A stretch of 64,000 bases of DNA from assembly GCA_028289645.1 (NCBI GenBank), contig JANQOK010000018.1:1-64000 (forward strand). Reading direction: 5' to 3'. Made by a program: the position numbers and the translations under genes. Shown here in pieces: positions 10,606-20,214 of this stretch (the first letter of the stretch is position 1; each line of letters opens with the position of its first letter). The stretch is from Anderseniella sp. GTDB taxonomy: Bacteria > Pseudomonadota > Alphaproteobacteria > Rhizobiales > Aestuariivirgaceae. The notes under the pieces are model-generated. The model saw only the letters and a list, made by a program, of their open reading frames with translations. It was not told where the DNA came from and did not search any database.

Positions 10606-11853
10606 TTACTTTTGTCCGCTTTGCAGCGTGGCACGGATCAGATCTCTCAAATCTTCTACGATCGTCTGTCTGTTGTGATGCGCTCGAACGAACTTCTCCA
10701 AATTGTCAGCTCTTCTTTGCGATTGGCGCCGATCACTCAAACAAGCTACGCAGGCGGCGAGCAACTCACCGGTGTCAGTAGCACACACAAAGGCATGTTT
10801 CTCGCTATCCAGATTCAGGCCTTCAGCGCCTTTGTCAGTGGTGATGACAGCAGTCCCGTATTGTCCGGCTTCGAGAATCTTGATCCTGCTGCCGCTGCCG
10901 AAGCGCAGCGGAACCACGCTGGCAACGGCACGCTGGTAGAGCGGACTGACATGGTCCGGATTTGCCACCAGCTCAATGTTGTGCCCGCTGCATATCTGCC
11001 TGACCTCAGCCCCGGGATTGCTGCCGGCCACGGTCAGACGGGCATCGGGAAACTGCAGTTGCAGGTCAGGCCACACGCCGGTCAGGAACCAATGCAACCC
11101 ATCGATGTTTGGCCGATAACTCAAATTGCCTACAAACAGCAGTTCTTTTGTTGCTGGACCTGGCGTGTGCAAGGGTTCCGGATCAGGCGCGGCGTTGCGT
11201 ACAACCCGGACGTTCTGCAGCCGAAGGCGTTGTTGCAGTCCGTTGGCGACAGTATCGCCGGCACAGGTAAACGCCGCCACATCACGCGCGGCACCGATGA
11301 TCTGGTTATCTGCCACGTCGGCTTCTGCGTCATGCCACTGTCGTTCGGTTCGGTTGTCAGACGCGCTGGCCTGTCGGGCGTAGCTGCGGTGCAGTTCGCC
11401 GTCATCGTCATCGAGATCTGCAATCACTGGTACGTTCGGCAAGGTGGCCTTCAACGGATCGACAAGCGGTAAAAGGTAACTTCGCGAAACTATGATCAGG
11501 TCAGGCTGATACTGTTGCAGGCGGTCTACGGTTTCCTGAGTTACAGGCAGTGACAACATGATCGATGCCGATGGCCTGCCGTACTGCCGCAGCAAGTCCG
11601 GCCTTTGCTCCGGTGGTGCATGGCTGCTGATCAGCCTTAGCTTCGTGTCCGGCCGGTTGAGCCCATCGATCCCGGTGACGCTGGCTCCGGAAATGCCGTG
11701 GTTGCCTACCGGCCCCTGATGATTGCCAATGACCACAATAAGGGCTTCTCCCAGACCCGCCGCGGCATCAGCAAACATGCTGGTGCGCATGGCAAGTCCG
11801 TTGCCGTGCCGCACCGGCAGAATCGGGCAGATGTGAGCTACACGCATGCTCAA
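10606..11853 (-). CDS. Glycosyltransferase, GT4-like (GT-B fold)
   Basis: 415 residues. The N-terminal half (MRVAHICPILPVRHGNGLAM) looks like the acceptor domain of GT-B enzymes. The C-terminal half contains LLFVGNLSYRPNIDGLHWFL, then VSPLYQRAVASVVPLRFGSG and RIKILEAGQYGTAVITT, the usual donor-binding and EX7E-like region of family GT4. It should move a sugar from a nucleotide-sugar to a glycan or peptide-linked acceptor in the cytoplasm. The stop-to-start gap from the mannosyltransferase-like gene upstream is 18 bp, so the two are co-transcribed. Donor and acceptor are unknown. An alternative start at 11847 gives MRVAHI. Confidence 0.75.
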   Translation of the reverse strand: MSMRVAHICPILPVRHGNGLAMRTSMFADAAAGLGEALIVVIGNHQGPVGNHGISGASVTGIDGLNRPDTKLRLISSHAPPEQRPDLLRQYGRPSASIMLSLPVTQETVDRLQQYQPDLIIVSRSYLLPLVDPLKATLPNVPVIADLDDDDGELHRSYARQASASDNRTERQWHDAEADVADNQIIGAARDVAAFTCAGDTVANGLQQRLRLQNVRVVRNAAPDPEPLHTPGPATKELLFVGNLSYRPNIDGLHWFLTGVWPDLQLQFPDARLTVAGSNPGAEVRQICSGHNIELVANPDHVSPLYQRAVASVVPLRFGSGSRIKILEAGQYGTAVITTDKGAEGLNLDSEKHAFVCATDTGELLAACVACLSDRRQSQRRADNLEKFVRAHHNRQTIVEDLRDLIRATLQSGQK

Positions 11854-11871: not shown

Positions 11872-13392
11872 CTAAGGCCGAACATACAGCCGCTGGTCGC
11901 CAAGTTGTTCAGGCGGAGATCTTTTAGCTGGTGAAGTGCCGTGTGCCCGATCGCCGGCGCTCAAGTCGGATGCGAGCGAACGTAGATTATCCGACAGTGC
12001 CGGTTCTGTGGCGGCATGGGTCTCGGCGACAATCTGAACCTGCTCGGCAATCCCGGGATCGATGCGATGCATCAACGCAATCGCATCAGTGAGTTTTTCC
12101 AGGTACGCGCTGTCATGGTCGCGTGCCAGCAGGCTTGCCCGCACCAGGTCGCCGACAACTCCTGCATTGGACTGCCGGTCCAGCGAGGTGGTTTCGCGGC
12201 TTTCGAGAGGTTCCAGGTAAACCATCTTCGATGGGAATGATGATGTCTCGCCCTGGCAATAGCCGTCCTCGCCGACATTCAGCGTCGCAACCGGTTTGTG
12301 ATGGTCAAAAAACGTCAGGCGGTTTTCTCGTTCGGAGCTGCAGACGCACCAGTTCATCAGGCTGGCACAGCGCCCGGCACCGATCTGATGTCCCGGCAGC
12401 AGTTCAATTGTCTGTGCGCGCTCGGATCCGCGCACATATGTAAAGCGGCGGTTCCGGACGAGGTTGTCTTCAATCTTTCGCGCCGCTAGGTCGCGATTGG
12501 GAGGGATGAAAATCTGGCCGTTCCAGATGCGTTTCAACTCGTTCAGAAAGCCTTCACATTCATCGAAGAGCTTGAAACCGGCTGCATTGACGTTGGCCTC
12601 GTTGAGCGACCACTTGCAGTTGGTCCGATGCTGGAACAAAGGTGTGCCGTCGAAATCTCTCTGGCAGAGAAACCGTTCGCTCTGAAACGGAGAATGCGGC
12701 ACCACCATGCATTCGCTGCCGCCGAGCCGCCATGCCAGCAGAAATGTGTCCTTGTCGCCGTAAACCAGACGGTAGAAAGTCTCGGCCCGCTGGTTCATGG
12801 CAAGCGCGATGTTGATAGCTTTCCAGTGCCTTCTTCTATTGACACACAACTGCCCGCTTTCCCACGAGCGGACCTGCTCGGGCTCCAGGCCGAGCATGGG
12901 CCAGATCGGATTTTCGGCAGCAAGATCAATGATATCTGGCCAGAAGATCGCGCCTGTTTCAAGATATTGTGGACAGTCGAACAATACTTTAGGGTCGGCT
13001 AATGGAACCTGGTCGGCATCCAGCAGAAGAACGTCCTCGAACCCGGAGTTTCTGACAGCATAGGATTTGAGTTGCCAGCCATCGTGAATGGACGCGGCGG
13101 TGCCGCCGCAGATGCTGCTTGCATCGATAACCTTGCATCCCAGTTCATTGAAGATGGCTGCCAGCAGTCCAGGCATTTCCTGCGCCCCCAGATGCCATAT
13201 CTCGATGGGCAGGCGCGATTTGTGAATGTCCCGCAAGACCCGCACCAGCACATAGGCGTTGGTCAACATCACCGGGCCACCGGCACATGTTACGATGCCT
13301 CTGCCCTCGCTTGAGGTTTCCGGATATGGCCCGGCCGAGTTCGCGTCATCAATCAGATCGCGAACCAGGGAACTGTCAGTTTTTGACGGCAC
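11872..13392 (-). CDS. Mannosyltransferase-like protein (MNN1/TTP1-type domain, Mannosyltransf_3)
   Basis: 506 residues. The first 270 resemble the fungal alpha-mannosyltransferase MNN1 family: IVTCAGGPVMLTNAYVLVRV, then IEIWHLGAQE, and a metal-binding DADQ motif at residues 125-128 within VLLLDADQVPLADP, followed by FWPDIIDLA and ESGQLCVNRRRHW. The C-terminal 200 residues have no family I recognise. The domain is known mainly from fungi and appears only sporadically in bacteria. The gene is the first of a two-gene leftward unit with the GT4 gene. The enzyme has no membrane anchor, so it should act in the cytoplasm. The sugar and acceptor are not known. Sugar transfer is well supported; mannose specificity is only a family name. 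Confidence 0.75.
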   Translation of the reverse strand: MPSKTDSSLVRDLIDDANSAGPYPETSSEGRGIVTCAGGPVMLTNAYVLVRVLRDIHKSRLPIEIWHLGAQEMPGLLAAIFNELGCKVIDASSICGGTAASIHDGWQLKSYAVRNSGFEDVLLLDADQVPLADPKVLFDCPQYLETGAIFWPDIIDLAAENPIWPMLGLEPEQVRSWESGQLCVNRRRHWKAINIALAMNQRAETFYRLVYGDKDTFLLAWRLGGSECMVVPHSPFQSERFLCQRDFDGTPLFQHRTNCKWSLNEANVNAAGFKLFDECEGFLNELKRIWNGQIFIPPNRDLAARKIEDNLVRNRRFTYVRGSERAQTIELLPGHQIGAGRCASLMNWCVCSSERENRLTFFDHHKPVATLNVGEDGYCQGETSSFPSKMVYLEPLESRETTSLDRQSNAGVVGDLVRASLLARDHDSAYLEKLTDAIALMHRIDPGIAEQVQIVAETHAATEPALSDNLRSLASDLSAGDRAHGTSPAKRSPPEQLGDQRLYVRP

Positions 13393-13624: not shown

Positions 13625-14374
13625 GTGCAAAATGTGCTGATACTGACACCGGTCAAGAACGCTAAGCAGTATCTGCCCGGATATTTTCAGAAACTCCTTC
13701 AACTTTCCTACAACCGGAAACAGCTGTCTGTTGCGTTGCTCGAGAGCGACAGCACCGACGGCACGTACGACGATTTGCAGAACCTCGCTCGAAAATACCT
13801 CGGCGACTTCCGTTCCCTTCAGGTCTTCAAGAGAGACTATGGCTTCAACATGCCCGCAGCGGTGCCACGCTGGGAGGCCGGGCTGCAACTGGCGCGCCGC
13901 AGCGTTCTGGCCAGGTCCAGAAACCAGCTGTTGTTTCGCGCTCTGTCGGACGAGGACTGGGTGCTGTGGCTGGATGTCGATGTCGTCGACTACCCGGAGG
14001 ATCTCATCGAGCGATTGCTCAGCTATGATCTCGACATCCTGCACCCTGATTGTGTCCAGGAACCAGGAGGAGAGAGTTTCGATCGCAATGCCTGGAAAGA
14101 CAATGGCAGGTTGCATATGCATGACTTGCGGGGAACCGGTGGGCCGGTCCGCATTGACAGTGTCGGTGGAACGGCGTTGCTGGTGAAGGCGGACCTGCAT
14201 CGTGACGGATTGATATTCCCGCCATACAAGTACGGTGTGGAATCTTCCGTGATCCGTCAACAGCATCCTGTGTGGGGGAAGGGAGAGATCGAAACCGAGG
14301 GCTTGGCGGCCATGGCGCGCGACATGGGTGTCCAGTGTTGGGGGTTGCCGGACCTGGAGCTTGTGCATGCCTGA
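13625..14374 (+). CDS. Anp1-type glycosyltransferase (mannan-polymerase-like, GT-A fold)
   Basis: 249 residues from a GTG start. NVLILTPVKNAKQYLPGYFQ opens a GT-A fold, followed by ALLESDSTDGTYDDL (about 38-51) and the metal site LDVDVVDYPEDLIERLL (about 116-132). The pattern resembles the Anp1/Mnn9/Van1 subunits of yeast mannan polymerase (Pfam Anp1), which are also found in some bacteria. In yeast these enzymes extend mannan chains; here the acceptor is unknown. The stop overlaps the start of the next gene by 8 bp, tying it to the dehydrogenase pair. An upstream ATG is absent, so GTG is the likely start. There is no signal peptide or membrane anchor. Confidence 0.72.
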   Translation: MQNVLILTPVKNAKQYLPGYFQKLLQLSYNRKQLSVALLESDSTDGTYDDLQNLARKYLGDFRSLQVFKRDYGFNMPAAVPRWEAGLQLARRSVLARSRNQLLFRALSDEDWVLWLDVDVVDYPEDLIERLLSYDLDILHPDCVQEPGGESFDRNAWKDNGRLHMHDLRGTGGPVRIDSVGGTALLVKADLHRDGLIFPPYKYGVESSVIRQQHPVWGKGEIETEGLAAMARDMGVQCWGLPDLELVHA

Positions 14375-14885
14375 GCCTGCCGACAAGCAATTGGCGGGCC
14401 GCCTCCGGTTGACGCGCCGTAAATTGCTGCTGCTCGCGCCGGTGGCGATCTTGTCAGGTTTTCTGGGTATCAGTACCTGGCGTACGGACAAGACCCTGAC
14501 CGCGTTCGTGGATACGCTACTGCCGGCAGATGAATATGGTCCGGCAGCGTCTGCCACGGGGGCGGTGCAAGTGCTGCAGTCCGCCTTTTCGGGGTCATTG
14601 GCGCGAAACGCGGAGTTGCGCATTTTGGTCCTCTGGCTGGATGTCGCGGCTGGCGGCTCATTTGCCGGTGCTGATCCTGAAACCAGGTTCCAGGTTGTAG
14701 ACCGGCTGGACCAGCGGTCCGAACATACCACAAGCTGGAAGATCTATCGTCGGGCAAGGTCAAGCGTGATGTTGCACTATTTCGGCAGTGCAGAGCGTGT
14801 TCTGGCCATGGGGTTGCCGGGCGCGCCGCAGCCTGACGGATACGATACGCCACATTTGCCATGGACGGGTGCCGGGCGTGACTGA
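14367..14885 (+). CDS. Gluconate 2-dehydrogenase subunit 3-like protein (Tat-type N-terminus)
   Basis: 172 residues. The N-terminus has a twin-arginine-like start (RLTRRKLLLLAPVAILSGFL) followed by TAFVDTLLPADEYGPAASATG, typical of the small gamma subunit of gluconate, glucose and fructose dehydrogenases. In characterised complexes this subunit carries the Tat signal and takes the GMC catalytic subunit across the membrane already folded. The gene overlaps its neighbours on both sides: ATGCCTGA with the glycosyltransferase and GTGACTGA with the GMC gene. The start at 14367 is preferred over an in-frame codon at 14328 because that one lies inside the upstream gene. Confidence 0.78.
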   Translation: MPEPADKQLAGRLRLTRRKLLLLAPVAILSGFLGISTWRTDKTLTAFVDTLLPADEYGPAASATGAVQVLQSAFSGSLARNAELRILVLWLDVAAGGSFAGADPETRFQVVDRLDQRSEHTTSWKIYRRARSSVMLHYFGSAERVLAMGLPGAPQPDGYDTPHLPWTGAGRD

Positions 14886-16554
14886 TCGCGATAAACGGGC
14901 TGCTTTGCCCAGGACAACTGATGTGCTGATCGTTGGCGCCGGAGCAGGGGGGGCGGCCGCGGCCTGGGCACTTGCCAAGCAGGATGTGCAGGTTGTTCTG
15001 GTCGATGCCGGACCTGAGTTTACCGCAGATGAGTACAAAGTCTCCGATGATGACTGGGAACGACAGGGCTTTCCGTACAAGCCCGGATCACGGGGGCGCC
15101 ACGAGATAGCTGCCGGCCAGGAGCTGCTTGATCGCTGGTCCGGGCTGCGCAGCTTCTACGCGCCGCGCCAACGCCGGTCGTCGCGCACCCATCGCGGCAC
15201 GCGCGAATATTCCCATGTCCGCGGCATAGGCGGCACTACCCTTCATTTCACCGGCTGGATTCATCGCCTGCGGCCCGAGGCGTTTGAGATGAACACCCGG
15301 TTTGGTGTCGCCGCAGACTGGCCTGTGAGCTATGCGGAACTGGAACCTTACTACCTGCAGGCTGAGCAGATGATCGGCGTGGCCGGGCCGGCAACGGTCG
15401 CCGGCAGGCCGAGAAGCGGTCCGTTTCCGACCCCCGCCCATCGCCCTTCCATGCTGTCCCAGGTAATAGGTAAGGGGGCTGAGCAGCTGGGTCTGAGTTT
15501 TGTGCCCAATTCGGTTGCAGCACCGTCAGTTGATTACCTGGGACGCCCGGACTGCAACTACTGCGGTTGCTGTCACAAGGGGTGCCCGCGCGGAGACAAG
15601 GGCAGCGCTGAACTGACATTTGTGCGACCTGCACTGGAGACCGGCAATTGTCAGGTGTTCCCAAGGCATACTCTGGTCGAGCTGATGCGCGGCCAGCATG
15701 ACGAACTGACCGGGGCAGTGCTGGTGGATGGCGCGGGGACCAGACATTCGATTGTCGCAAGGCACTATATCCTGGCTTGCGGCGCCGTTGAGACACCACG
15801 GCTGCTGCTGGCCATGGACGGGCTCGGCAATGAATCAGGTCAAGTCGGGCGCAATTTCATGGAAACCCTGAGCAGTGATGTGATCGGCCTTCATCCGGAT
15901 CAAATCGGCAGTCACCGCGGGTATCCCGAAGACAGTGTTTGTTGGGACTATAACAGCCCTGACGCAATCCCGGGCACGCCCGGTGGTGCGTTACTCGTCC
16001 CCCTTGCCGCGTCTGCAGACTATATTGGCCCGGCACGTTATGCCTCTCGGCTGGTCGAGGGGTTTGGCACGAGTTTCAAGCAACAACTGATCGAGACTTT
16101 TGGCAAGGCGGCAGGGGTCGCCTTGATCTGTGAGAACCTGCCAAACCCGAGATCATTTGTTACCTTGTCAAAAGATGCTGTCGACGAGAACGGCATGGCA
16201 ATTGCCCGGATCAACTCCTTCCTGCCGGACATGGAGCTTGAACGTCTCGCGTTTGTCACGGCGAAAGCGGAGGAAATCCTGCTTGCTTCTGGCGTGCCCA
16301 AAGTACTGGAACGTGTCACCACGTACGAGCATTTTGCCAGTTCGCACGTAATGGGGACTTGTCGGATGGGCGCCGATCCTGAGAAGTCCGTCGTTAACGG
16401 CTCACAACGCAGCCACCGTTGGAAGAACCTGTGGATATCCGACACTAGCGTTTTTCCGTCGTCAGGAGCCGGCGAGGGGCCCTCGCTTACTGTTCATGCT
16501 CTGTCACTGCGTATGGCGGATGCAATCGTTGCACAGGTAAACGGAGCTGTTTGA
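14878..16554 (+). CDS. GMC oxidoreductase with Cys cluster, gluconate/glucose dehydrogenase type
   Basis: 558 residues from a GTG that overlaps the stop of the small subunit. The FAD-binding start is VLIVGAGAGGAAAAWALA. Residues 226-236 read CNYCGCCHKGC (Cys 226, 229, 231, 232, 236). Related dehydrogenase large subunits use cysteines at this place to hold a 3Fe-4S cluster that carries electrons to a cytochrome. The C-terminus has SSHVMGTCRMG and GAGEGPSLTVHALSLRMAD. The second catalytic position, usually Asn or His just before Pro, reads Gly here. The enzyme should oxidise a sugar or alcohol, probably in the periplasm through the Tat route. No cytochrome subunit is encoded next to it, so the electron acceptor is unknown. 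Confidence 0.85.
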   Translation: MTDRDKRAALPRTTDVLIVGAGAGGAAAAWALAKQDVQVVLVDAGPEFTADEYKVSDDDWERQGFPYKPGSRGRHEIAAGQELLDRWSGLRSFYAPRQRRSSRTHRGTREYSHVRGIGGTTLHFTGWIHRLRPEAFEMNTRFGVAADWPVSYAELEPYYLQAEQMIGVAGPATVAGRPRSGPFPTPAHRPSMLSQVIGKGAEQLGLSFVPNSVAAPSVDYLGRPDCNYCGCCHKGCPRGDKGSAELTFVRPALETGNCQVFPRHTLVELMRGQHDELTGAVLVDGAGTRHSIVARHYILACGAVETPRLLLAMDGLGNESGQVGRNFMETLSSDVIGLHPDQIGSHRGYPEDSVCWDYNSPDAIPGTPGGALLVPLAASADYIGPARYASRLVEGFGTSFKQQLIETFGKAAGVALICENLPNPRSFVTLSKDAVDENGMAIARINSFLPDMELERLAFVTAKAEEILLASGVPKVLERVTTYEHFASSHVMGTCRMGADPEKSVVNGSQRSHRWKNLWISDTSVFPSSGAGEGPSLTVHALSLRMADAIVAQVNGAV

Positions 16555-16557
16555 ACC

Positions 16558-17706
16558 ATGAGCGGCGCGTCCTTGTTGCAGCCCAACGAGCGGCATGACT
16601 TGCTGGTCAGGCTCCTGCGCTTCGATCCTCACCCGGAACAAATCAGCGCGCTGCGGTTTGAACTGCTCGGCGATATCCGGGCCTTGGAAGCCTTGATGTC
16701 TGCGGCGTCCCGACGCCAGTTGATTTCGGCAGCAATAAGCCGGCTGAAGCTCAATGGCATCCTGCTTCCGAGACCGGCGCGTGAAGACGAGCGAGAAACG
16801 ATTGCCACGCAGATTGGCCACCTTGACGCAGAGCTGTCCCGGCGCCGGGGAGCTTTGACGCAGGCGCTGCAGGACGTTGTTGCCCAGCTCAACAGCGCCG
16901 GTATTGTGCCGTTGATCCTGAAAGGGTCGATGTCACTGGTTTCAGGCGAACCTGACTGGCGCTTCCAGCGCGATATTGATTTTGCCGTCGACCCGGCGCA
17001 GGCCAGCGCGACGGTTGCGGCCCTGACTGCGGCAGGGTTTGTCGAGTGTGCGAATGGCGGCGCGCGTCCGCATCATTTGCGGCCAATGGAAAGGGCCGGT
17101 CTGCCGGCGACCATTGAACCTCACGTCAAGCTGGCCGGCGCGCGGGCCCGGGCCGTCCTGCCGGATCAGATATTGTTGCAGACTGAAACAGTGGAAACCT
17201 GGCGCGGTCTCCAATACCGGCGATTGAGCGATGCCGGATCTGTCCTGCATGGGCTGGCGCATCATCATTTTCAGAACAGGGGATACATCTACGGAACATT
17301 CAGCCTGAAGGGCTTGTTGGAATTTGCATCATCGGTTTCCAGGCTGGACGCGGCAGCCGTCTCGCAGCTTGCCGAGATCACCGGGCCGCGCGCACGGTTG
17401 AGTGCGGGGCTGGATTTGTGGTGCGCTCTTGCTAGACGTGTCCTGAACTTGTCATTGCCGCAAGGCCTGGAGACCGGTGACGTTGCTGAGCGCAATGCTG
17501 AGATCGTTGCACAGCGATATCTGAACGGGCACACGGTGTCGCCGGTTAGGGGGGTGCAGGAGCATCTCAGGCTAACAAGAGATCAATTGTCGAAAGGCGC
17601 TATCGGAAGCGATGTGCTGCAGACGGTTTTGGATGGTTGCCACTCGGCCGTATGGCTGGATTACCAGGATCAAAGATGCAAGGCGTCAGGCATCATCGAA
17701 GTTTGA
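16558..17706 (+). CDS. Family-5 nucleotidyltransferase-like protein (NTP_transf_5)
   Basis: 382 residues. The core VVAQLNSAGIVPLILKGSMS followed by RFQRDIDFAVDP carries the conserved Lys122-Gly-Ser and the metal-binding D139-x-D141 of this superfamily. Homologues often occur beside HPr-kinase-like and PqqD-like genes. In the lasso peptide pseudomycoidin a homologue is reported to add sugar to the phosphate placed on the C-terminal Ser of the peptide. It begins 3 bp after the GMC gene and is probably co-transcribed with it. It converges with the GT2 gene, leaving only 10 bp between the stops. Its substrate here is inferred from neighbours, not seen. Confidence 0.75.
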   Translation: MSGASLLQPNERHDLLVRLLRFDPHPEQISALRFELLGDIRALEALMSAASRRQLISAAISRLKLNGILLPRPAREDERETIATQIGHLDAELSRRRGALTQALQDVVAQLNSAGIVPLILKGSMSLVSGEPDWRFQRDIDFAVDPAQASATVAALTAAGFVECANGGARPHHLRPMERAGLPATIEPHVKLAGARARAVLPDQILLQTETVETWRGLQYRRLSDAGSVLHGLAHHHFQNRGYIYGTFSLKGLLEFASSVSRLDAAAVSQLAEITGPRARLSAGLDLWCALARRVLNLSLPQGLETGDVAERNAEIVAQRYLNGHTVSPVRGVQEHLRLTRDQLSKGAIGSDVLQTVLDGCHSAVWLDYQDQRCKASGIIEV

Positions 17707-17716
17707 AGCCAACCCG

Positions 17717-18814
17717 TCATCCAGATTTGGCGCGGGCTTTGCTGAGTGCCAGTTTCGTCCGGAATTCGAGTGAGTCAGGTGCGAAGCGCATCGCGTTTGC
17801 ATAGCTTTCGCAGGCACCGACATAATTGCCTGCGCGAAACCGGGCGGCACCTAGAAGCCCGTGTACGTCTTCGCCGAAAATTGATTTGGAGTACGCAATG
17901 CGCCGGTCAAAAAAGGTTTCGGGATCGTGCTGGCTGAGCGGTTCCAGCAGGCTGATCGCCTCGTCCAGCCGACCTAGTGCAACCAGGCATCGGGCCTTGC
18001 CCCAATGCAACGCCATATTGTCCTTGAACAACGCCAGCCCGTCGGCGGCTGCTGACATTGCGTCATCCACTTTCTCGGCATCAAGGAACATCGAAACCAG
18101 AACCTGGGCACACATTGATCCTTCGACGCGCTGCTGTTCCGACGCTCCTTTGCGCGCTGCCAGCCGCATACCGATCCTCAGGTGCTCGGCCGCGTCCTCC
18201 TTTCGTGCCACTGCGTCCAGCCTGTAGCCCAGATCATACCGCAAATAGACGCGATCGGGATTTTCCAGGACCGCCTGGAGCAGCAGCGGAATGTTCCTGT
18301 GATGTTTGTGGCGCTGGTTGCCGTCGTAACCCAGGTGGTCGATCGCAATAGCGTATTGCCTTGCGACCTGGCTGTTGTCTGCATCGCAAACTGCCCTAAC
18401 CGAAGGCACAATGGATTCGTGCATCGAGCCTTTGAACCGTATACGAGGGTCGCGGCGGAAGAGGCGCAATTCATCGTAGCAGGTCATATCAGTTCGGGGG
18501 CGGAACTTAACTCTGAGGCCGGTCACATCCGCATCGGGCAAAAGCGAGGCCAACGGCACGTTGCCCGTGCAGCTCAGTCTTTCATCGGCATCAATGTACA
18601 GTACCCAGTCACTGGACGCATTGTCGATGGCGAAATTACGGGCGGTGGAAAAGTTGTCCTGCCATGGCTGATGCAGCAAGTTACAATCGAACTGGCAGGC
18701 AATGTCGAGCGTGCCATCGCTCGACCCGGTGTCCACAATGACAATTTCGTCCACATGGGTCCGCAAACCAGAAAGGCAGCCTTCCAGGAAAGCTGCCTCG
18801 TTCTTGACGATCAT
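17717..18814 (-). CDS. GT2 glycosyltransferase with C-terminal TPR-like region
   Basis: 365 residues. The GT-A core is very clear: MIVKNEAAFLEGCLSGLRTH, then IVIVDTGSSDGTLDIA, QDNFSTARNFAIDNASSDW and the metal site YIDADERL (DADE at about 75-78). From residue 180 onwards the sequence is helical and TPR-like, as in many peptide- and glycan-modifying GT2 proteins. The frame is open for a few codons upstream (LLISTVSAC), which looks like the missing first strand, but it contains no ATG, GTG or TTG before a stop. Either the protein starts at 18814 slightly short, or a non-standard ATT start is used. It lies 30 bp downstream of the 56-codon peptide gene. Confidence 0.8.
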   Translation of the reverse strand: MIVKNEAAFLEGCLSGLRTHVDEIVIVDTGSSDGTLDIACQFDCNLLHQPWQDNFSTARNFAIDNASSDWVLYIDADERLSCTGNVPLASLLPDADVTGLRVKFRPRTDMTCYDELRLFRRDPRIRFKGSMHESIVPSVRAVCDADNSQVARQYAIAIDHLGYDGNQRHKHHRNIPLLLQAVLENPDRVYLRYDLGYRLDAVARKEDAAEHLRIGMRLAARKGASEQQRVEGSMCAQVLVSMFLDAEKVDDAMSAAADGLALFKDNMALHWGKARCLVALGRLDEAISLLEPLSQHDPETFFDRRIAYSKSIFGEDVHGLLGAARFRAGNYVGACESYANAMRFAPDSLEFRTKLALSKARAKSG

Positions 18815-18844
18815 GCACGCAGAGACGGTTGAAATGAGAAGCCG

Positions 18845-19015
18845 CTAACTGTTGCTCGCCATGACCTTGCCAGCCAAAGCTGAACTCATCTTGCCGTCGA
18901 TCGCAAACGTGGCGATCACGGGTGCAGTGAAAGCGGCTGTACGAACCAGGGTGCGGATTGTTTCACGCTTGTTTTCGTCGATGGATTGCACGGATTTTTC
19001 AAATTTCTCAGTCAT
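18845..19015 (-). CDS. 56-residue peptide, candidate modified-peptide precursor ending in Ser
   Basis: ATG at 19015, stop TAG at 18845-18847, with AGGGG about 9 nt before the ATG. The protein starts MTEKFEKSVQSIDENKRETI, a charged helical leader-like part, then has a hydrophobic stretch TAAFTAPVIATFAIDGKM and ends SSALAGKVMASNS. It contains no Cys or Trp. It sits between the HPr-kinase-like gene (41 bp away) and the GT2 gene, all on the same strand with the PqqD-like gene, in the place where a precursor would be expected. The C-terminal Ser is notable because lasso-peptide kinases related to HPr kinase phosphorylate exactly that residue. Alternatives are a small exported or membrane peptide. 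Function is not known. Confidence 0.6.
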   Translation of the reverse strand: MTEKFEKSVQSIDENKRETIRTLVRTAAFTAPVIATFAIDGKMSSALAGKVMASNS

Positions 19016-19056
19016 ACCAAACCCCTAGCTTTTACTGCCTGACAGCAGGAGACTTA

Positions 19057-19890
19057 TCATGATCTTGAAAGTTGACGCAAGTGCCATATTGCAGTTTTCA
19101 GGCATCCCAACCGCATTTCCAGGCATTTGGCTGCCCGTGTCAGATTGTGCAGGCGTGCCAGGGCGGCAGGCTTTCCCGTCTTCGGCAGAAACACAGATCT
19201 GGTAAGCCTTTCAAACGCCTGATTCGGTGATAGCGGTCTGGTTGCTGTCAGCCCACCGTGGTTTGGTGTGAGAAATAGAAGTACGTCAGCCGGGCCCTGT
19301 TTGATTGTCCAGCTTGTTTCCGGCGTCTGTGGCGTAACCGAGTAGATCGGATTCCCGTCCCAGTCGATAATGGCCGGGCACGTGCGGATATGCTCTTCAA
19401 GTTCCGGGACATGAGCAAGCGAACCTTGCTTTATGCGCAACGTACGCGGGCGCGCCAGGACATCGGTCTGCCCAATGACCACATGCTCGTCCCCTTCCAC
19501 CGTGAAGCCTTCGGCAAGGCATCTCAGACTCAGGGTCGTTTTGCCGGATCCCTTGTCTGCCATGATCAGGAATCTGCAATCGTCGACCACTATGCTGGCC
19601 GCATGAGCGATAGGTGCCCCGGACGTTTCAGCCAACATAGTGTCCTTGAGGATTTGATGTCCCCGATTGAGCATGTGCTCACATGTGCCAGGCAATCCGT
19701 CATGCGGAGGTGCGAAGTCATAGTAGCCGTCAGCGAGTATCGCCGACTCTATGTCGATCGAACCGACCGCCTGATTGGGCATGTTCGGGGCTGCAGCAAG
19801 GAAAGCGAGGCGCTCGGCGAGCATGCCATCGGCGCAATGAAAATGGACAATACTGGTGATGGATCGTGTTGTGACTACTTTGCCCGGCAA
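19057..19890 (-). CDS. HPr kinase-like protein
   Basis: About 277 residues from a TTG start that overlaps the PqqD-like gene by 16 bp; the first ATG is at residue 23. The P-loop is ADKGSGKTT (about 111-119), followed by FTVEGDEHVVIG (about 129-140), matching the layout of the HprK C-terminal kinase domain, with APIAHA just before the P-loop strand. The HPr-binding N-terminal domain of true HPr kinases is absent. Members of this short family beside PqqD-like genes include the kinases that phosphorylate the C-terminal Ser of lasso peptide precursors (PadeK, ThcoK). A substrate in the adjacent 56-residue peptide is therefore plausible but inferred. Confidence 0.72.
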   Translation of the reverse strand: MPGKVVTTRSITSIVHFHCADGMLAERLAFLAAAPNMPNQAVGSIDIESAILADGYYDFAPPHDGLPGTCEHMLNRGHQILKDTMLAETSGAPIAHAASIVVDDCRFLIMADKGSGKTTLSLRCLAEGFTVEGDEHVVIGQTDVLARPRTLRIKQGSLAHVPELEEHIRTCPAIIDWDGNPIYSVTPQTPETSWTIKQGPADVLLFLTPNHGGLTATRPLSPNQAFERLTRSVFLPKTGKPAALARLHNLTRAAKCLEMRLGCLKTAIWHLRQLSRS

Positions 19891-20150
19891 ACTAGCCCTG
19901 CCTTTTCCAGGTCGGCAAAGAAACCGTCAAGTTCGACCTCCTGGTCGAGATCGTAAGCCTCGCGGACGAAGGCCTGGACCTCGCTGACGGGCATCTTGCC
20001 ATCACATACCGTGTAGATGACGGCGGCTGTCGGGTTCAGGTAATGAACTTTTTCACCTTGCTCATCATAGATGACAAAGCCATCCGGTACTTGGGTCACT
20101 TCCAACTCTCCTGTGACTTGAAAGACTTCGGTCCCGGTGAGTTTCGACAT
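19875..20150 (-). CDS. PqqD-like peptide-recognition (RRE) protein
   Basis: 91 residues from ATG 20150, preceded by a good AGGGG site; an upstream in-frame start at 20177 has no better signal. The core VHYLNPTAAVIYTVCDGKMP followed by VSEVQAFVREAYDL and ELDGFFADLEKAGLV is the classic PqqD winged-helix fold that binds leader peptides in PQQ, mycofactocin, lasso and related systems. It overlaps the HPr-kinase-like gene and heads the leftward unit PqqD-kinase-peptide-GT2. No radical SAM enzyme, lasso cyclase or transglutaminase-like protease lies nearby, so it is not part of a standard PQQ, mycofactocin or lasso cluster. Confidence 0.82.
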   Translation of the reverse strand: MSKLTGTEVFQVTGELEVTQVPDGFVIYDEQGEKVHYLNPTAAVIYTVCDGKMPVSEVQAFVREAYDLDQEVELDGFFADLEKAGLVCRAK

Positions 20151-20214
20151 TGCCCCTGCCTTTTTCGCTGATATCACTTTACGGCATATTGCCTAGCGCC
20201 AAACCGGCTGGGTT

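Follow-up and report, generated by a model that had tools for sequence, protein, structure and literature searches.

A short-peptide gene cluster in Anderseniella and its relatives as a candidate RiPP-like phospho-glycopeptide pathway

We investigated a candidate peptide-modification locus in a window of 64,000 nucleotides from Anderseniella sp. (contig JANQOK010000018.1 of a 4.8-Mb genome, C20 in our numbering; loci and genomes below carry L and G numbers). A run of four genes on the minus strand encodes a PqqD-like protein, an HprK-like kinase, a peptide of 56 residues and a family-2 glycosyltransferase with tetratricopeptide repeats (GT2-TPR), and a nucleotidyltransferase gene of the NTP_transf_5 family (NTP5) on the plus strand converges on this run. 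The PqqD-like protein is a candidate for a discrete recognition element (RRE) of ribosomally synthesized and post-translationally modified peptides (RiPPs). The core genes are:

19875..20150, minus strand: PqqD-like protein (PF05402), candidate discrete RRE; open reading frame 19875-20177, probable ATG at 20150
19057..19890, minus strand: HprK-related kinase, candidate peptide kinase; TTG start, P-loop and GDE motif, TIGR04352 match below cut-off
18845..19015, minus strand: predicted precursor peptide, 56 residues, MTEKFEKSVQSIDENKRETIRTLVRTAAFTAPVIATFAIDGKMSSALAGKVMASNS; AGGGG upstream
17717 to about 18829, minus strand: GT2 glycosyltransferase (PF00535) with C-terminal TPR; open reading frame 17717-18814
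16558..17706, plus strand: NTP5, family-5 nucleotidyltransferase (PF14907), convergent

These genes had been named by an earlier sequence-only reading, and profile searches bore it out: the PqqD-like protein (34.6 bits against PF05402, cut-off 23.4), NTP5 (50.5 bits against PF14907, cut-off 31.2) and the GT2 domain scored above the Pfam cut-offs, and the kinase was recognized by a weak match to TIGR04352. The open reading frames of the PqqD-like protein and the kinase overlap by 16 nt. The kinase keeps the P-loop ADKGSGKTTL and the GDE motif but has no Pfam match, and the NTP5 signature KG[SA]...RDxD is kept in all eight rows of the alignment. The start of GT2-TPR is uncertain, because the aligned domain of its relatives begins upstream of the sole ATG, at 18814, and no ATG, GTG or TTG occurs between there and the peptide stop (18814-18847); ATT may perhaps be the real start. 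The GT2 frame continues in frame after the peptide stop in the window, and a peptide-GT2 fusion by read-through was considered and not adopted, since the two genes sit in different frames in the congener G001.

Comparison with relatives indicates that the 56-codon reading frame is a real gene. Homologues occupy the same position in two congeners (68% and 44% identity), and comparison with the nearer, G001, gave a nonsynonymous divergence (dN) of 0.29 and a synonymous divergence (dS) of 2.69, which together place the peptide beyond chance; with dS near saturation, the ratio is a rough one. The constraint was concentrated in residues 1-48 (dN 0.19, dN/dS near 0.1), and the tail of eight codons was free to change (dN 1.6), which is the pattern that a leader followed by a core would show. 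The peptide matched no Pfam or NCBIfam family up to E 1. Three elements were recognized in it:

18914..18931, minus strand: FTAPVI, residues 29-34, leader motif [FY]xxPx[VI], candidate RRE-binding site; in 20 of 20 peptides
18872..18880, minus strand: A-L-A, residues 46-48, signal-peptidase-I-like site, starting 14-15 residues past the Pro
18848..18871, minus strand: tail GKVMASNS, variable and containing Ser and Asn; candidate for the modified core

The comparison covered 20 peptides from 11 loci. A-x-A was found in 19 of them and A-x-S in L032, always 14-15 residues past the motif Pro (for L029b our script reported an earlier AIS, and AQA at +15 was assigned by eye). The conserved C-terminal Ser proposed from sequence alone did not hold up, being present in 4/20 peptides; the constant tail residue is Asn (20/20), tail Ser or Thr occurs in 18/20, and Cys in none. 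One to seven precursor copies sit between HprK (or PqqD) and GT2-TPR, and the tandem copies (seven in L028, three in L029, two in L036) share similar leaders and differ at their C-termini. A short precursor with a conserved leader, a variable core and an adjoining protein of leader-binding type is the general RiPP arrangement. Discrete lasso RREs bind [Y/W]xxPx[LVIFA], and YxxP occurs in the leaders of linear polyphosphorylated peptides (LPPs), the HprK-phosphorylated, nucleotidyltransferase-associated RiPPs of Bacillota (Popov et al., Nat Commun, May 2026, PMC13381572). The Phe-containing variant in our peptides resembles that motif, a likeness rather than a proven binding site. Bradyrhizobium LY.8 (L035, 9995-10435) has this leader joined to a Peptidase_S74 domain, chaperone of endosialidase (PF13884, E 1.1e-7).

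To examine the prevalence of this gene set, loci were scored on stretches of 10-20 kb plus the window. Peptide-bearing loci numbered 11 (the window, L014, L015, L028, L029/L034, L031, L032, L080, L035, L036 and L037; L030 and L079, which have no peptide, are outside this count) and came from the genus of the window, Phreatobacter, Bradyrhizobium, Devosia and further relatives. Presence of the peptide in all 11 follows from selection, so the unbiased figures are those of the separate searches. Cluster-type loci found through the kinase held the peptide in 6/7 cases besides the window (L014, L015, L028, L029, L031 and L032; not L030), and loci found through the peptide held PqqD, HprK and GT2-TPR in 4/4.

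Among 60 genomes including that of the window, kinase and peptide occurred together in G000, G001 and G004; additional weak kinase-type matches, one in G004 and one in G011, lay apart from the cluster, and a peptide match in G029 (E 0.05) was taken as chance. An order-wide search of 397 genomes with the kinase profile gave nine matches in six genomes, eight of them in clusters with the peptide and the ninth at L030 (G112). A peptide-pattern scan of one genome per species (84,980 species) returned 35 stretches, of which four were confirmed: Phreatobacter LE19-251.1J (the G191 locus), Bradyrhizobium LY.8, B. diazoefficiens SZCCT0138 and Devosia RYN_484. This total is an undercount, because the pattern is narrow and misses the peptides of L015, L031, L032 and L080; L080 (G181) was found through Anp1. 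Class- and phylum-wide peptide searches (2 of 385 and 1 of 398) gave nothing beyond the window and a false match in G581 (E 3e-4), whose frame looks by eye like an ArsR-type regulator, so the system is rare. Plasmids gave no peptide match and one weak kinase match, in Leisingera.

PqqD and GT2-TPR were present in all 11 peptide loci (the latter truncated in L037, where the contig ends), HprK in 10 (absent from L080) and NTP5 in 8 of the 10 that could be assessed (the stretches of L032 and L080 have none, and L037 breaks off short of it). The RRE, the HprK-like kinase and the NTP transferase were all present in 8/10 assessable loci, the window included. Within the core the genes run PqqD-HprK-peptide-GT2-TPR; L028 and L029 depart from this in having a second HprK, Mannosyl_trans3 and GT4 inserted between PqqD and the peptide-side HprK. 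The second HprK beside PqqD has a degenerate P-loop (L028 10757-11560, GDQRCGRTTL; L034 5341-6138, TGSPGDRSTL), and the peptide-side copy is intact. Conservation of a short precursor-like peptide with PqqD, HprK, GT2 and NTP5 was supported, and the several glycosyltransferases noticed at first sight proved part of the recurring set. In the window these further transferases are:

13625..14374, plus strand: Anp1-type glycosyltransferase (PF03452, E 1.6e-47)
11872..13392, minus strand: Mannosyl_trans3 glycosyltransferase (PF11051, E 2.2e-29)
10606..11853, minus strand: GT4-type glycosyltransferase (PF13692, E 1.5e-19)

Anp1 was found in 10/11 peptide loci (not L015), Mannosyl_trans3 in 9/11 (not L015 or L080) and GT4 in 9/11 (not L015 or L031), and a GT10 fucosyltransferase in L014, L029 and L031. 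Anp1, presumably the fungal Mnn9/Van1 family, and Mannosyl_trans3, which we take to be the Mnn1/Mnn2 family of fungi, are familiar chiefly for their part in yeast mannan. Anp1 was rejected as a marker of the system: it matched 15 times in 297 genomes of the order, six times in peptide loci (G000, G084, G099, G112, G181 and G191), and seven Anp1 genomes (G025, G034, G167, G234, G271, G287 and G307) had neither PqqD, HprK nor peptide. In G227, Anp1 stands without the three at L078, and at L079 (9434-10644) PqqD and Anp1 are adjacent with the rest of the set absent, perhaps a decayed locus.

Against solved chains, the GT2-TPR protein lay nearest to GmaR (22ao, E 2.2e-33) and SunS (7msp, E 2.6e-28), in both of which the GT2 domain modifies its peptide or protein substrate directly. 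GmaR, which also carries TPR, moves N-acetylglucosamine onto flagellin, its TPR domain being proposed to help recognize flagellin (PMC9638930). The match to the SunS-family profile (E 3.6e-19) reached 68.9 bits with a cut-off of 350; unlike SunS, which NCBIfam names an S-glycosyltransferase, the window enzyme falls below that cut-off and accompanies peptides without Cys. The PqqD profile found TfuB1 (6jx3), which we take to be a lasso RRE, as its best chain (E 4.6e-5).

The genes present, their conservation and neighbourhood, and the motifs with their spacing are what was observed; from these we infer the chemical steps, the modified residue, the sugar and the export route as follows. The locus probably encodes a RiPP-like, RRE-guided pathway to a linear phospho-glycopeptide, for which all the chemistry is read from sequence. 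The PqqD-like protein would grip the precursor leader through [FY]xxPx[VI] and present the short tail, on which the HprK-type kinase may place a phosphate at Ser or Thr. GT2-TPR would attach the first sugar, a role assigned to it because its nearest relatives, SunS and GmaR, glycosylate peptide or protein directly. NTP5 would attach a sugar or nucleotidyl group, probably onto the phosphate as in pseudomycoidin; the precedents of paeninodin and pseudomycoidin (PMC8498205) and of the LPPs would point to the tail Ser or Thr as the site of both kinase and NTP5. The Anp1-, Mannosyl_trans3- and GT4-type enzymes may then lengthen the glycan, and the leader would be cut at A-x-A, the simplest candidate for this being signal peptidase I of the host, acting during export. 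Since GT2-TPR and the tail Asn are found throughout, unlike the kinase and NTP5, glycosylation could be the core step, and our guess would be that it occurs on Asn.

Covariation between enzymes and tail bears on these assignments. L080 (G181) has no NTP5 in its 20 kb and no cluster-type kinase in the genome (a distant kinase-profile match, E 9.6e-11, falls on a different contig, in a frame of 676 aa), and its tail lacks Ser and Thr, a pattern that would follow from both enzymes acting on that residue. Several observations weigh against the proposed pathway. L032 (G084), of the same genus, keeps the kinase though its tail has neither Ser nor Thr, so that the covariation is one event at best, and it rests on this single genus. 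L030 combines GT4, Mannosyl_trans3 and the kinase without a peptide, the G112 cluster being elsewhere (L031), and L015 has no Anp1, Mannosyl_trans3 or GT4 within 19 kb. The TfuB1 match is weak, as the same list continues with unrelated chains at E 0.006-0.01 and then a PqqD-family entry at 0.013; the kinase reaches 38.8 bits against TIGR04352 (HprK_rel_A, E 5.7e-10) with a cut-off of 200, and neither the kinase profile nor the NTP5 profile matched any solved chain. No dedicated peptidase or exporter was found among the scanned neighbours, and the hydrophobic stretch with [FY]xxP could be no more than a signal-peptide h-region.

Among known systems, the LPPs come closest. Both have a discrete RRE, an HprK-like kinase, an NTP transferase, an aromatic-xxP leader motif, a short precursor whose N-terminus is conserved and whose C-terminus varies, and a polysaccharide neighbourhood; the LPP core has no macrolactam cyclase, and none was seen here among the proteins scanned with Pfam. 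LPP clusters have features of their own, namely the precursor motif YxxPxVLxHQxIxFETxxS, the SpI-type peptidase LppS and an MsbA-like exporter, and deletion of the nucleotidyltransferase gave no detectable change there (PMC13381572). The loci described here differ in belonging to Hyphomicrobiales and in their [FY]xxPx[VI]...A-x-A leader, constant GT2-TPR, mannan-type transferases and one locus without kinase. The SpI archaeal-type signal peptidase (TIGR02228) was over its cut-off in none of the eight genomes searched (those of L035-L037 were outside this search); matches below cut-off in G001 and G112 lay on other contigs than the locus. No MsbA-like transporter appeared among the selected neighbours scanned with Pfam, although no search was aimed at it.

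In paeninodin and pseudomycoidin, an HprK homologue phosphorylates Ser and a nucleotidyltransferase adds a hexose to the phosphopeptide; a Proteobacterial example, S. yanoikuyae, has also been named (PMC8498205). The kinase and nucleotidyltransferase are common to both, but lasso machinery is needed there, and the modified Ser is C-terminal, a position that is not constant here. A lasso B2-type gene (PF13471, Transglut_core3) occurred in 4/8 locus-bearing genomes (those of L035-L037 again outside the search) and never on the locus contig, in agreement with the initial statement that the locus lacks a transglutaminase-like protease gene. No Asn-synthase-like macrolactam synthetase was seen among the Pfam-scanned proteins, in a survey not aimed at it; radical SAM and lasso cyclase genes were likewise covered by the Pfam scans of selected neighbours and not by an aimed search. 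The cluster is set apart from LPP and lasso systems because it lacks the remainder of the LPP precursor motif and, in the eight genomes searched, has no SpI over cut-off and no lasso B2 gene on its contig. RRE-glycosyltransferase (PF00535) fusions have already been proposed as possible RiPP genes (RRE-Finder, PMC7470986; 2025 successor, PMC12710340), the domains being fused there and separate here, together with a kinase, a nucleotidyltransferase and this peptide family. Among the papers found in searches of the open-licence PMC literature, none described the gene set outside Bacillota, which does not prove absence. The suggestion of a new type of pathway is thus weakened by the LPPs, and what stands of it is the separate precursor family and an enzyme set that differs from theirs.

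Mycofactocin loci combine a PqqD-like protein with a glycosyltransferase and a GMC enzyme, and the same three gene types lie near each other in the window. The sequence-only reading had drawn on this likeness, which falls because the GMC gene occurs in only 2/11 loci; by tblastn the GMC pair was in the window and L014 alone, and the window GMC protein scores 65.1 bits with an MftG cut-off of 387. The pair lies outside the core:

14788..16554, plus strand: GMC oxidoreductase (PF05199, PF00732)
14328..14885, plus strand: gluconate-2-dehydrogenase subunit-3-like GMC partner (gluconate_2-dh3-like, PF13618)

A wider comparison was provided by the HPr-rel-A system, which shares the kinase, a PqqD-family protein, an adjoining NTP_transf_5-type gene and, in most loci examined, an upstream leader-bearing protein. 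Its putative precursor differs in having 163-233 residues and the leader RRRxLLKG...P...GAALA. The window kinase is below the 200-bit cut-off of TIGR04352 and so outside HPr-rel-A by that test, and the window PqqD-like protein is below that of PqqD_rel_X (TIGR04353; 24.7 bits, cut-off 35). The HPr-rel-A kinase was found in 36 of 150 genomes sampled phylum-wide, 34 of them over cut-off. In 21 of the best 25 of these 36 loci the leader profile matched a frame of 163-233 residues near the kinase (E <1e-16), with no match in L054, L067, L068 and L072. Among five further stretches L092 matched and L093 did so weakly (1.8e-6), with no match in L089 (same genome as L054), L091 and L094. As the profile was built from 19 of these loci, the independent matches are L056, L060, L074 and L093. 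The frame between leader protein and kinase was PqqD_rel_X over cut-off in 10/10 loci tested among the 21, an NTP5-profile match lay beside the kinase in 8/8 larger stretches, and in eight stretches the GT2-TPR profile had a single hit, a weak one (1e-4). In L066 the leader-bearing protein is on the strand opposite the kinase. Seven leader proteins scanned showed no credible Pfam or NCBIfam family. These observations suggest that the leader-bearing proteins (L053-L077, L092) may be the HPr-rel-A substrates; in the open-licence literature we found no paper with the term HPr-rel-A or HprK-related kinase and none naming its substrate. Common descent of this leader and the peptide family is not claimed (hhalign probability 24%, P 8e-4).

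Related gene groupings were seen elsewhere. In the genome of the window, L017 (C1, 5632-7712) has an HprK-like gene, PqqD over cut-off, a lasso-B2-like gene and a 62-70-aa reading frame with WLRPSL, with no cyclase in the adjoining list of reading frames (no search was aimed at one), and L019 (C8, 6446-8562) has PqqD, a 336-aa protein weakly matched by the HprK profile and a 260-aa Gly/Arg-repeat protein with the leader DRREALARLGLTGLSLLVAPSLMTISEGHA. In G004 (C54), L016 (413-3643) holds in a run an HprK-like gene, a 564-aa protein that is NTP_transf_5-like by eye, and a PqqD-like gene.

Other explanations of the peptide locus were weighed. The peptide may be a small exported anchor or primer for a mannan-like surface polysaccharide, on which GT2-TPR starts the chain and the other transferases extend it, with a phosphate-linked cap supplied by kinase and NTP5; the result would be a structural glycoprotein rather than a diffusible natural product. 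The company of Anp1, Mannosyl_trans3 and GT4, with GT10 in three loci, the signal-like leader with A-x-A, the glycosylation of flagellin by GmaR (PMC9638930) and the Peptidase_S74 fusion in Bradyrhizobium LY.8 all speak for such a role. We nevertheless regard it as rather unlikely, as the discrete RRE and the fixed spacing from leader motif to cleavage site are RiPP traits, and multiple short precursors with varied C-termini would be unusual for an anchor.

Assigning the locus to a Proteobacterial branch of the LPPs, with a linear polyphosphorylated product and accessory glycosyltransferases, would account for the joint presence of RRE, HprK and nucleotidyltransferase, the YxxP-like motif and the lack of lasso B2 in the locus, and LPP clusters likewise lie in polysaccharide loci (PMC13381572). 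However, the HQxIxFETxxS part of the LPP motif is absent from 20/20 peptides, no genome searched has an SpI-type peptidase over cut-off, the authors state that LPPs are confined to Bacillota (PMC13381572), and GT2-TPR is found in 11/11 loci, the kinase in 10; we consider this assignment improbable. HprK proteins are classically regulatory kinases, and the peptide, located in a glycosyltransferase locus, could be a small protein of the membrane or periplasm that regulates polysaccharide synthesis and is switched by HprK-type phosphorylation, the transferases being its targets rather than modifiers. That would leave PqqD, the contrast between leader and tail, the tandem copies and the kinase-less locus unexplained, and seems very improbable.

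A bolder proposal is a separate glyco-RiPP class, which we put forward tentatively and would not yet bet on. An RRE would present a leader with [FY]xxP and A-x-A, SunS/GmaR-type and fungal-mannan-type enzymes would build an oligosaccharide on the tiny peptide, and kinase and nucleotidyltransferase would be dispensable; the class would be a branch of a wider rule by which PqqD, HprK and NTP_transf_5 act on exported proteins with A-x-A leaders, the putative HPr-rel-A precursor included. Collectively, these findings would extend kinase- and nucleotidyltransferase-associated linear RiPPs beyond Bacillota into Hyphomicrobiales, where they have their own precursor family, and they suggest a concrete candidate substrate for the HPr-rel-A system. 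The pairing of a leader-binding-type protein with yeast-mannan-type glycosyltransferases would open a way to programmable bacterial glycopeptides.

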